Origin: Sandaracinaceae bacterium
GTDB lineage: Bacteria; Myxococcota_A; Polyangia; Polyangiales; Sandaracinaceae
Length of the DNA stretch: 38,417 nt
Direction of reading: 5' to 3'
Assembly (NCBI GenBank): GCA_040218145.1
Contig: JAVJQK010000130.1
Coordinates: forward strand, 1 to 38,417
Notes under the pieces: generated by a model
Told to the model about the DNA's origin: nothing
What the model saw: the letters and a program-made list of their open reading frames with translations, nothing else
The model's database searches: none
Made by a program: the position numbers and the translations under genes
Shown here: piece by piece, positions 30,614 through 37,216 of the stretch
Position numbering within the stretch: the first letter of the stretch is position 1
How the letters are laid out: every line of letters begins with the position of its first letter

Positions 30614-32446
30614 GTGCCCCGCCTCGTCCCAGTGATCTGCGCCCTGCTGACGCTCCTCGCGTCCCCGGCCATCGCCCAGCCCGAGCGCGAGCCGCCCCCC
30701 GCCCCGAGCCCGGAAGCAGAGGGGGAAGCGGGTGCAGAAGCGGACGCGGACGCGGAAGCGGGTGCAGAAGCGGAAGCGGAAGCGGAAGCGGAAGCGGAAG
30801 CGGAAGCGGAAGCGGGTGCGGAAGCGGAGGCGGAAGCGGACGCGGAATCGGACGCGGACGCGGACGCGGACGCGGACGCGGAAGCGGAAACGCAAGCCGA
30901 GCTCGTCGACGACCCCGATCCCGCCGACGTCTCCCCGACCCCTGGCGGCATGGGCACCCTCGAAGACGCCGAGTCGGGCCCCCCCGAAGACACCGAAGAC
31001 ACCGAGCCCGAAGAAGAAGCAGCGGAGGAGGGTGGCCTCACCTTCGGCGGCAGCCTCGGCGGCGAGTACCGCCACCGCGTCGTGTTCCTCAGCGACTTCC
31101 CGCTCGACCCGCTCCCGCGCACCGATCCCGCGACCACCGGGCGCTACGGCTCCAACTTCTGGGGCGAGCAGTGGCTGCGTCTGCACGGGGAGCTCGCGCT
31201 CCGCCCGGTGCTGCGTCTGTACGCCGAGACCGACCTCGTCTGGGGCGTGGCCTACGGCGACCTGGCCCAGGGCCTCGACCCCGCCGCGTGGCCGCGCGAC
31301 GACTACGGCTATCCGGGCCTCCGGTTGCGTCAGCTGTACCTCGAGTGGCGTACCCCCATCGGCCTGCTCCGGGTCGGACAGATGGCCTTCAGCTGGGGCC
31401 TCGGCATCATCAGCAACGGCGGCAACGACCCGCCGGTCTTCGGCGACTACCGCTACGGCGACCTGGTCCGACGGCTGCTTTTCGCGACCAAGCCCGCGGG
31501 CGAGGACAGCCCCTTCACGATCGCGGTCGCCGGCGACTGGGTCGCCTGGGATCTCATCGCGGACCACGACGGCCGCGGCGACCTGGCGTTCCAGGGGCTG
31601 CTCGCCGCCTTCTACGAGGACGACGAAGACAACCAGCTCGGCGCGTACGCGGCGTACCGCCACCAGACGAACACCCTGAACGACGAGCTCAGCGTCTTCG
31701 TCGGCGACGTCTTCGCCAAGCTGCACTTCGGCGAGCCGAGCGGGGGGCGCATCCGCGTCGCGTTCGAGGCGGCGTACGTGCGCGGAACCACGACCCTGAC
31801 CCGAACCGTCACGCACCCCGAGCAGGACGTGGAGCAGCTCCTCGCGGTGGCGCAGATCGGCCGGGTCTCGCCCCACCTCGACCTCATCCTCGAGGGCGGC
31901 TACGCGAGCGGCGACTCGAACGCGGAGGACGGCATCCAGCGCCGCGGCACGATCGACCCCGATCACCGCGTCGGGCTGATCCTCTTCCCCGAGGTGCTCG
32001 CCGCGCAGAGCGCGCGCTCGGCCAACCTCGCGCGCTCGCCGACCCTCTTCGGCCGTCCCAGCCGCGGCACCGAGCTGCTGCCGACCAACGGCGGCGTGTC
32101 GAACGCCTACTACTTCTTCCCGTACGCGATCTGGCGCCCGATGGACTGGATCGACGTGCGCCTCGGCGGCGTCGTCGCGTGGAGCTCCTCGGACGTCGTG
32201 GACCCCTTCGCGCAGCGCGCGCGCTCGCGCTCGGTCAACTATCGCGGCGGCGATCCGTCGCGGAGAGACCTCGGGCTCGAGCTGGACGGAGCGGTGCTCT
32301 TGCACGGCGAGATCTCGGAAGGCGTCACGCTGAGCGGCGGCGTGGAGGGGGGCGTGCTCTTCCCGGGCGCGGCGTTCGAGGACGCCGACGGCAACCGCAT
32401 GGACACCGTCGCCATGACGCGGCTCCGGCTCGGGATCCGGTACTGA
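30614..32446 (+). CDS. Outer-membrane beta-barrel protein A
   Basis: This protein of about 610 residues has a signal peptide ending LASPAIAQ, then a linker of about 100 residues rich in Ala-Glu and Ala-Asp encoded by a hexanucleotide repeat, then a barrel-like domain of alternating strands ending in aromatic Tyr (RLRLGIRY), as expected for the BAM recognition strand. The segment LYLEWRTPIGLLRVGQMAFSWGLGI is shared in type with the second barrel gene downstream. GTG 30614 is chosen for the signal peptide; an in-frame GTG at 30542 would add 24 unlikely residues. TATCGT lies 11 nt upstream. It is the first gene of a four-gene cluster. A porin or lipid-transport role is inferred. Confidence 0.75.
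   Translation: MPRLVPVICALLTLLASPAIAQPEREPPPAPSPEAEGEAGAEADADAEAGAEAEAEAEAEAEAEAEAGAEAEAEADAESDADADADADAEAETQAELVDDPDPADVSPTPGGMGTLEDAESGPPEDTEDTEPEEEAAEEGGLTFGGSLGGEYRHRVVFLSDFPLDPLPRTDPATTGRYGSNFWGEQWLRLHGELALRPVLRLYAETDLVWGVAYGDLAQGLDPAAWPRDDYGYPGLRLRQLYLEWRTPIGLLRVGQMAFSWGLGIISNGGNDPPVFGDYRYGDLVRRLLFATKPAGEDSPFTIAVAGDWVAWDLIADHDGRGDLAFQGLLAAFYEDDEDNQLGAYAAYRHQTNTLNDELSVFVGDVFAKLHFGEPSGGRIRVAFEAAYVRGTTTLTRTVTHPEQDVEQLLAVAQIGRVSPHLDLILEGGYASGDSNAEDGIQRRGTIDPDHRVGLILFPEVLAAQSARSANLARSPTLFGRPSRGTELLPTNGGVSNAYYFFPYAIWRPMDWIDVRLGGVVAWSSSDVVDPFAQRARSRSVNYRGGDPSRRDLGLELDGAVLLHGEISEGVTLSGGVEGGVLFPGAAFEDADGNRMDTVAMTRLRLGIRY
30722..30892 (+). repeat. In-frame hexanucleotide repeat (GCGGAN)n in barrel gene A
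   Basis: About 170 bp of GCGGAA and GCGGAC units encode Ala-Glu and Ala-Asp repeats in the linker between signal peptide and barrel. Because the unit is six bases, gain or loss of units keeps the frame, so the linker can vary in length between strains without inactivating the gene. Confidence 0.85.
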
Positions 32447-32461
32447 GAGGGGAGGGGGGGC

Positions 32462-35213: not shown

Positions 35214-35296
35214 GAGTTTTGGCAAGATCTCGTTGACTTGGGGGTGGCCGGCGTTGGAAAACGTGGCCGGGGTGGGAGTGCCGCCCGGGAGGAGCG

Positions 35297-37216
35297 ATGA
35301 AACCGTCTGAGCTCAGAGCGCGGGCAGGACTGATCCGAGCAGGCCTCTGGATCGCCTGCCTTCTGGTGTTGGCGTGGGCGCCTCTCGCCTTCGCCCAGCC
35401 TCCGGAGGGTGAAGAAGAAGAGGACGCCGAGACGACCGAGGAGGGGACCGGCGTCGACGCCGAGACTCCCGACGACGTGCTCGGTCACGAGGAGGTCCCG
35501 CCGCCCGAAGGCTTCGAGGGCGACGAGCCCGAGGAGATGGAAGAGGAGGACATGACCAATGTCGCTCCACCGCCGCCTCCGCCCCCGCCGCCTCCGCCGC
35601 CGCCTCCTCCCCCGCCGCCCTCACCGGGCGCAGGAGGTGGAGACGCCGAGGACGCCGACACCGGCATCCCGATCAACTTCGACCTCCACGGCTACTACCG
35701 CGCGCGCCTCGTCACCATGGACGCGCAGCCGGTGCCGGGCTCCTCGCCCTCCCGCGACAACGCGGGGCACGCCGCCTACGGGTTCATGCGCCTCCGGCTC
35801 AACCCGTCGATCCTCTTCGGCAGCGACCGCGAGTCGCCCGTGGCCGCGCTCCGCATGCAGATCGACGCGCTCGACAACGTCGTGTTCGGCGACAACGTGC
35901 GGGCCGCCTCGACGCCGCTCTTCGCGGCCGACCCGTCGCGCACGAGCCTCCTCGACGGAGAGCTGCAGGACTACTTCTTCCTGCGTCGGCTCTGGCTCGA
36001 GTTCCTGATCCCGATCGGACAGGTGCGCATCGGTCGTCAGCCCTCGCAGGGTGGTCTCGGCCTCCTCTTCAACGACGGCAACGACTTCCGCAACGACTTC
36101 GGGGACGCGCTCGACGGCACCACCTTCGACCGCATCCTCTTCGCCACGCGGCCGCTGACGATCTTCAACGCGCTCACGCGCGGCGACTCTCGCCCCACGC
36201 CCCTGATCTTCGCGCTCGCCTACGACTGGCTCGCGGAGGACACCCTCGGGCTGGGCGGGGATCCGGGCGTGCGCTCCCCGTTCCCGTTCGCGCAGCTGCC
36301 GGGCGGCGAGGACGACGTCTACCAGACGACGCTCGTGCTGGCGTGGCGCGACGAGGACTTCAACAGCGAGGTCAACGCCCGCGACGAGCTGACGGCCGGT
36401 CTCGTCATGGTCTACCGAGGCCAGGACTCGACCGACAGCAACATCTACATCGGCGACGCCTTCTACCGCATACGCTGGAGCGCCTTCGGGCGCCGCGCGC
36501 CGGGCATCTACTCCGAGGGTGAGCTCTACACGATCCAGGGCTCCACCTACGGCCTCGGCCTGGTGAACCCGACGACGGGTCGGGTCGGCGCGCGCAAGGG
36601 CGCGAACGTCTGGGGCGGCGCGGCGCGCCTCGGCCTCGACGACCCGATGTGGGGCGCCTACCTCGAGAGCGGCTTCTCGTCCGGGCAGGATCAGCTGCTG
36701 GGCACGCTCGCGCAGGTGAACCAGCCCGACGACTGCCCGCCGGAGGAGACCTGCCTCTCGCTCCGACAGCGGCCCAACAACCCCGCCTACCAGGTGGGTC
36801 TCCTCCTCTACCCGACGGTCCTCGCGGTGCGCACCGCGGCGACCTACGGCGCCGACTTCGACTCGGTGTGGTCGGGCGGCGGCGTCTGGAACTCGATCTA
36901 CTTCATGCCGCGCGTGTCCTTCCGGCCGCTGCCCGGCGTGGAGCTGATCGGTCAGTTCATCCTCGCCTTCGCGGACCAGCTCAACCTCCCGCTCAACGAC
37001 GAGCGCACGGACGCCGACGGCGCTGGCTGCGGTCTCGACGAGGCCTGCATCCTGGGCTGGGAGGCGGACGTGGCGCTCAAGGTCAGCTGGGGCCCGAACG
37101 ACGAGATGCGCTGGTCGAACGAGTTCGGCATCATGAACGCCGGCCCGGCGCTCGGCCCGCGCCTCTCCAGCTCGCTCATCTGGACGCTCCAGTCGCGGAT
37201 CGCCTTCGTCTTCTGA
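35297..37216 (+). CDS. Outer-membrane beta-barrel protein B
   Basis: This 639-residue protein has a signal peptide ending APLAFAQ, an acidic linker, a run of 18 prolines (about residues 91-108), and a barrel domain ending in Phe (SRIAFVF), the usual outer-membrane insertion signal. LWLEFLIPIGQVRIGRQPSQGGLGLLFNDGNDFRND, followed by FDRILFATRPL, is related to LYLEWRTPIGLLRVGQ and LVRRLLFATKP in barrel A, so the two are paralogues. A polyproline rod could span the periplasm or peptidoglycan. GGGAGGAGCG precedes the ATG. The gene ends the cluster at a UUCG-type terminator. Confidence 0.8.
   Translation: MKPSELRARAGLIRAGLWIACLLVLAWAPLAFAQPPEGEEEEDAETTEEGTGVDAETPDDVLGHEEVPPPEGFEGDEPEEMEEEDMTNVAPPPPPPPPPPPPPPPPPPSPGAGGGDAEDADTGIPINFDLHGYYRARLVTMDAQPVPGSSPSRDNAGHAAYGFMRLRLNPSILFGSDRESPVAALRMQIDALDNVVFGDNVRAASTPLFAADPSRTSLLDGELQDYFFLRRLWLEFLIPIGQVRIGRQPSQGGLGLLFNDGNDFRNDFGDALDGTTFDRILFATRPLTIFNALTRGDSRPTPLIFALAYDWLAEDTLGLGGDPGVRSPFPFAQLPGGEDDVYQTTLVLAWRDEDFNSEVNARDELTAGLVMVYRGQDSTDSNIYIGDAFYRIRWSAFGRRAPGIYSEGELYTIQGSTYGLGLVNPTTGRVGARKGANVWGGAARLGLDDPMWGAYLESGFSSGQDQLLGTLAQVNQPDDCPPEETCLSLRQRPNNPAYQVGLLLYPTVLAVRTAATYGADFDSVWSGGGVWNSIYFMPRVSFRPLPGVELIGQFILAFADQLNLPLNDERTDADGAGCGLDEACILGWEADVALKVSWGPNDEMRWSNEFGIMNAGPALGPRLSSSLIWTLQSRIAFVF

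Follow-up and report, generated by a model that had tools for sequence, protein, structure and literature searches.

A ceramidase-fold lipoprotein between two predicted outer-membrane barrels: a candidate lipid-processing cassette in a Sandaracinaceae bacterium

Why would a bacterium encode a ceramidase-like lipoprotein between two outer-membrane barrels? The question is raised by a 38,417-nucleotide stretch of DNA from a Sandaracinaceae bacterium (positions 1-38,417 of contig JAVJQK010000130.1, assembly GCA_040218145.1; C130 in our numbering), which we refer to as the window. The genome is 11 Mb, and its nearest named relative is Sandaracinaceae bacterium MED-G138 (SHBB01000324.1), whose hydrolase is 99% identical. 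At positions 30614-37216 of the window, four genes lie on the + strand with intergenic gaps of 15, 11, and 109 nucleotides. In order, they encode a barrel (B1), the hydrolase (HYD), a second lipoprotein (LP), and another barrel (B2). An earlier reading of the DNA, made from sequence alone, had described four exported proteins encoded in one direction, which the reading frames and export signals confirm. It had also proposed a surface machine that cleaves ceramide-like or other amide lipids and moves the products through the barrels. We favor, with a probability of roughly 0.58, an envelope lipid-processing system. The phospholipase partners of related barrels, a five-gene order in relatives, and the pairing of HYD with LP argue for this much of the proposal; naming ceramide as the substrate goes too far.

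Conserved gene order and a VolA-like phospholipase

We surveyed 183 genomes of the order (G-numbers identify genomes, with G000 being the window's, and L-numbers identify loci). B1-HYD-LP-B2 recurs with unchanged order and direction in eight genomes: that of the window, G182, G004, G024, G052, G062, G063, and G066. G182 is the same species as the window, and its B2 runs into the contig end; in G013, HYD-LP-B2 reaches a contig end. Whether the four genes stay together in relatives had been set beforehand as a test, and an order that recurs in eight genomes is not due to chance. Several of the cassette loci are flanked by the same genes (one for an FG-GAP lipoprotein, one for a lipoprotein with PQQ-type repeats, and one other), so we consider them to be at one ancestral place.

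HYD and LP are also associated across named Myxococcota loci. HYD-family matches are present in 67 of the 183 genomes and LP-family matches in 82. Of 80 such loci with HYD, 35 have a same-strand LP-family gene no more than 2.5 kb away, which lies downstream of HYD in 24 loci and upstream in 11. Given about 1-3 copies of LP in genomes of about 8 Mb, we estimate that well under one such case would be expected by chance. In a tree of HYD, these arrangements are spread over several separate, well-supported clades. One clade has a gene for a DnaJ-type co-chaperone between HYD and LP (L173:3446-4444, L179:9667-10722, and L205:9680-10645; confirmed by Pfam in L173), which is odd company for genes of exported proteins. 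At another locus, a second copy of HYD (L164:7098-8669) lies behind the barrel, to give phospholipase-HYD-LP-B2-HYD.

The two barrels have different partners. In many relatives, a B1-type barrel adjoins a large lipoprotein of about 1100-1300 residues that matches TIGR03502, the VolA/Pla-1 phospholipase family (E values of 4e-12 and 2e-8). This VolA-like protein also has a weak match to Lipase_bact_N, and its consensus contains the GxSxG stretch GQSLGG. Across 56 genomes searched, we found 37 VolA-like loci in 30 genomes. A barrel of the superfamily adjoins 24 of the 37: in 21 cases the barrel is immediately upstream on the same strand, and 3 are divergent. All 21 of the phospholipase-adjoining barrels that we fetched are of the B1 type. 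The VolA-like phospholipase and the B1-type barrel are thus a conserved enzyme-barrel pair in their own right across the order. Loci with this pair are L269:6019-11291 (G000:C65:38018-43290) and 20 more, L279-L298.

The two arrangements are joined in three genomes, which have the order B1-VolA-like-HYD-LP-B2 (L161, L166, and L178, where B2 of L178 follows at a distance of about 4.5 kb). In L160 and L164, VolA-like-HYD-LP is followed further along by a barrel. L280, a short contig of G013, has B1, the VolA-like gene, and the start of HYD. In the window, HYD occupies the slot behind B1 that the VolA-like phospholipase fills in most relatives. The VolA-like genes of this genome are encoded elsewhere: one on C65, divergent to another B1-type barrel, and one on C24 without a barrel. 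VolA-like genes without a barrel also occur in G002, G003, G004, G024, G042, and G052. Because B1-type barrels have phospholipase partners and the five-gene order exists, lipid hydrolysis and uptake are favored.

B1 and B2 were described as two related barrels that bracket the lipoproteins. They are related (27% identity), but they are not an equivalent pair. Profiles built from B1 and from B2 separate the two types cleanly. A quick tree of 60 barrels has a fully supported branch, one side of which consists of the 25 barrels encoded downstream of LP; the window's B1 is on the other side, which is dominated by barrels that adjoin the large VolA/Pla-1-like lipoprotein. B1 and B2 therefore represent two subfamilies with different partners. 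Neither has a Pfam match, and their profile has no match in PDB. We predict that they are outer-membrane barrels from their signal peptides, their aromatic C-termini, and their similarity to NCBIfam TIGR04551, which they match at 75.6 bits (B1) and 82.6 bits (B2), far under the cut-off of 300. Across B1, B2, and the phospholipase-linked barrels, these scores range from 50 to 104 bits. The superfamily is present in 179 of the 183 genomes, with several copies per genome. We tested two stricter rules, that a B2-type barrel always comes after LP and that a phospholipase lies beside every B1-type barrel. The former is not strictly true and the latter is not true. Some small-genome relatives have B2-type barrels without LP (L299:6506-8440, L300:5666-7696, and L301:5752-7731), and in L300 and L301 the barrel is followed by a gene for a different small lipoprotein.

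The ceramidase-fold lipoprotein and its partner

By score, fold, and residues, HYD is a member of the Ceramidase_alk superfamily. Residues 120-303 match PF04734 at 49.9 bits, above the gathering cut-off of 32.1, and HYD has no Pfam match beyond this N-terminal family. Its predicted structure, built with 25 homologs, has a predicted local distance difference test score (pLDDT) of 89 and a predicted template modeling score of 0.93. The only PDB matches of the model are neutral ceramidases: 2zws from Pseudomonas aeruginosa (Z 31.6, root-mean-square deviation 2.6, 387 residues) and 4wgk, human ASAH2 (Z 29.1). The next chain in PDB has a Z of 4.2. A phmmer search of PDB with the HYD sequence alone gave nothing useful, whereas the family profile and the model did match.

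The sequence-only reading had listed zinc motifs of the neutral-ceramidase type. H186, H188, H288, E462, and Y526 are indeed invariant in all 81 HYD homologs, but Y523, which was also on the list, varies. Two residues behind the HxH, D192 and G195, are likewise invariant, as is the C-terminal motif YEETxS. When the family profile is aligned with human neutral ceramidase (4wgk), the HTH and HP motifs pair, and PGE pairs in a weak second stretch. The GY motif aligns with the AGY of a canonical Ceramidase_alk member from the same genome (on C12, without a signal peptide; the genome also has further relatives).

The other test set beforehand was whether the hydrolase has a zinc site; in favor of one, the predicted zinc-ligand residues are invariant on a ceramidase fold. 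The resemblance to the Pseudomonas enzyme covers the fold and these residues, but not the C-terminal domain. The alignment stops at residue 491 of that enzyme, whose chain continues, which leaves HYD with the catalytic domain alone. Also, HYD scores just 23.1 bits against the NF041649 equivalog, whose cut-off is 1200. For these two reasons, HYD should be called a ceramidase-fold amidohydrolase rather than classified as a neutral ceramidase.

LP was expected to contain two beta-sandwich modules, and a model with a mean pLDDT of 96 bears this out. The best structural matches that span both domains are four entries for a lipase from Archaeoglobus fulgidus (Z 10.0-10.5, 182-188 residues; for 2zyr, Z 10.5 and 184 residues). 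The next unrelated chain has a Z of 6.5. LP superposes mostly on the C-terminal part of the lipase, which we take to be the substrate-binding part. Sequence comparisons hint at a relationship with the corresponding Pfam family, Lipase_C (PF18067). The window's LP has no match to this family, and the best members of the LP family reach 16-17 bits (cut-off 27); five such sub-cut-off matches fall inside LP-family reading frames. Comparing profiles yielded a 9% probability and a P of 0.0037 over 73 columns (one query row was inexact, though not within the aligned columns); a second run with the exact letters, in another mode, was negative. We consider the relationship to Lipase_C to be a lead, and a role for LP in lipid binding or docking is also a lead rather than a result. 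We rejected the idea that LP is a pilin-like adhesin: Foldseek ranks pilins first, yet the superposition covers single domains only (Z 4-5).

Weighing the possible functions

If the cassette does process lipids, HYD would be a membrane-tethered zinc amidohydrolase, most likely one that hydrolyzes an N-acyl (amide) lipid at the outer membrane. LP would be a lipid-anchored partner of HYD and B2 and would most likely present the lipid or dock the enzyme, for which its structural likeness to the substrate-binding part of the A. fulgidus lipase is a lead. B1 and B2 may be specialized outer-membrane barrels that pass the products, such as a fatty acid and a head group. The overall plan would match that of Vibrio, where the surface lipase VolA is paired with the FadL barrel, and the layout would be related to the larger cassette B1-phospholipase-HYD-LP-B2, with the phospholipase encoded elsewhere in the window's lineage. 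The gene order and its conservation, the fold and conserved catalytic residues of HYD, and the two barrel subfamilies with their neighbors are direct observations; from these we infer the substrate class, surface location, transport by the barrels, and the cooperation of LP.

Several results weigh against this account. At the ancestral place, G002, G042, G068, and G083 have B1-LP-B2 from which HYD is cleanly absent, and over half of the 80 loci have a solitary HYD; therefore, neither barrel needs HYD. Nannocystis exedens and Plesiocystis pacifica are among the carriers of HYD alone. (G001, G006, G003, and G007 have LP-B2 at that place. As loci of both kinds exist without HYD, we view it as an optional member.) Some B1-type and B2-type barrels lack their usual partners. 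The TIGR03502 match of the VolA-like lipoprotein is below the curated cut-off, and no match that we found relates the B1 or B2 barrels to FadL.

These results raise the question of whether the neighbors have a common task at all. HYD might be a movable lipoprotein gene in a barrel locus, while LP and the barrels serve envelope structure, adhesion, or the like. An optional and often solitary HYD would fit this idea, as would a barrel superfamily that is nearly ubiquitous and multicopy, and single LP domains do resemble pilin and CNA-B modules. However, HYD-LP pairs occur with either gene first and in separate clades, and distant genomes carry HYD within the B1-phospholipase cassette. Both are far above chance, so we regard independent neighbors as very unlikely. 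If there is a common task, it could be self-remodeling instead of feeding: the system would trim or recycle the cell's own outer-membrane amide lipids, such as those of the ornithine type or N-acylated ones, while the barrels would export or insert lipids. The gene data are compatible with either direction of transport. The cassette lies next to housekeeping genes and has long been kept at one ancestral place, which fits a function in the cell envelope. We nevertheless think self-remodeling unlikely, as the patchy distribution of HYD and the link to a VolA-like phospholipase suit the use of outside lipids better.

HYD could also be a true ceramidase that cleaves (dihydro)ceramides of prey or of its own cell, with barrels that carry the fatty acid and the sphingoid base. 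The neutral-ceramidase fold, the metal-site residues, and the PF04734 score all agree with this. Yet the equivalog score is far too low, the C-terminal domain is absent, and the loop behind the HxH differs, with D192 and G195 invariant in the HYD family. Furthermore, no protein of this genome reaches the cut-off for serine palmitoyltransferase, although this is weak evidence because such cut-offs are clade-specific. Overall, a true ceramidase seems improbable, and we prefer the broader reading of an envelope lipid-processing system. A more detailed version of that reading is tentative: the full arrangement B1-VolA-like-HYD-LP-B2 might be a modular outer-membrane lipid-digestion operon of Myxococcota. 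Each hydrolase would then have a separate non-FadL barrel, HYD would be a two-part amidase with LP replacing the missing C-terminal domain, and the window would hold a pared-down form with only the amidase branch.

Little is known about how lipids are digested and imported through the outer membrane by predatory and social Myxococcota, and the cassette names enzyme-barrel pairs that can be tested. Its phospholipase and amidase neighbors also give a functional lead for a barrel superfamily found in almost every genome of the order, and its ceramidase-fold enzyme has an envelope setting that differs from the setting of known neutral ceramidases.

Layout of the locus and comparison with known systems

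Features of the cassette in the window (all on the + strand)
Feature	Position	Description
B1	30614..32446	GTG start; signal peptide, Ala/Glu-rich tract, predicted outer-membrane barrel of the phospholipase-linked subfamily
HYD	32462..34201	Lipoprotein; zinc amidohydrolase domain of neutral-ceramidase fold, without the ceramidase C-terminal domain
HYD H186-x-H188	33017..33025	Metal-site motif; invariant (81/81); pairs with HTH of human neutral ceramidase
HYD H288	33323..33325	Metal-site residue; invariant (81/81); pairs with HP motif of 4wgk
HYD E462	33845..33847	Metal-site residue (PGE motif); invariant (81/81); PGE of 4wgk aligns with it in a second, weak stretch
HYD Y526	34037..34039	Metal-site residue (GY motif); invariant (81/81); pairs with AGY of the genome's canonical member
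LP	34213..35187	Lipoprotein with two beta-sandwich domains; partner of HYD and B2
B2	35297..37216	Signal peptide, acidic and poly-Pro tract, predicted outer-membrane barrel of the LP-linked subfamily
Hairpin	37238..37265	3' of B2; possible terminator, T run not clear

The signal peptides of B1 and B2 end in LLASPAIA and LAFA, each followed by Q, and both HYD and LP have the lipobox VALG before the cysteine. Asp at position +2 directs lipoproteins to the inner membrane in E. coli, and Lys at +2 marks inner-membrane lipoproteins in Myxococcus xanthus, whose outer-membrane lipoproteins have no conserved residue at +2 (PMC3222651). Behind the lipoboxes of HYD and LP, an Asp/Gly/Pro-rich tether is compatible with surface exposure: it fits but proves nothing. 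Low-complexity tracts precede both barrels (about 60 residues of Ala-Glu/Ala-Asp repeats at 30680-30920 and 18 consecutive prolines at 35560-35640), and these tracts might span the periplasm. A terminator had been claimed at the end of the cassette. The hairpin there is stable (12 bp; -31.2 kcal/mol for the stretch, z -3.45), but it lacks a proper T run and a terminator scan did not flag it, so termination at this site is plausible but not clear. Directly downstream, and in the same direction, a gene at 37329-38279 encodes three LysM domains and a weak Peptidase_M74 match. We dropped it as a fifth member of the cassette, as its homolog is on the opposite strand in the closest full locus (L035). 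Elsewhere in the genome, L258:3-2315 (G000:C6) is a 771-codon frame of which only the first half was assigned, by a match to alpha-oxoamine synthases (PRK07505-like); in this it differs from the three ordinary paralogs.

Among known systems, neutral ceramidases (2zws, 4wgk; PF04734) share with HYD the fold of the catalytic domain (Z 29-32) and the H, H, E, and Y residues of the metal site. Unlike them, HYD has no C-terminal domain, has another loop behind the HxH, is just 19% identical, has a lipoprotein anchor, and is encoded in a putative operon with LP and barrels. Similarly, LP and the C-terminal domain of the A. fulgidus lipase (2zyr; Lipase_C) have two superposable beta-sandwiches, whereas LP forms a lipoprotein of its own. 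TIGR04551 is matched below its cut-off by B1, B2, and the phospholipase-linked barrels alike, and B1 and B2 represent two subfamilies distinct from it.

In Vibrio cholerae, the surface lysophospholipase VolA, a lipoprotein, is encoded beside the FadL barrel. The proposed machine was expected to be new, but VolA and FadL already follow the same plan: in both systems, the gene for an envelope-anchored hydrolase lies beside the gene for an outer-membrane barrel (with a lipid substrate being our inference for the cassette), and relatives of the window hold an actual VolA/Pla-1-like protein in the cassette. The cassette differs in having a zinc amidohydrolase as its enzyme, two TIGR04551-like barrels instead of FadL, and the additional LP. 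By this analogy, the system would be a scavenger of the VolA/FadL type in its plan, not in its composition.

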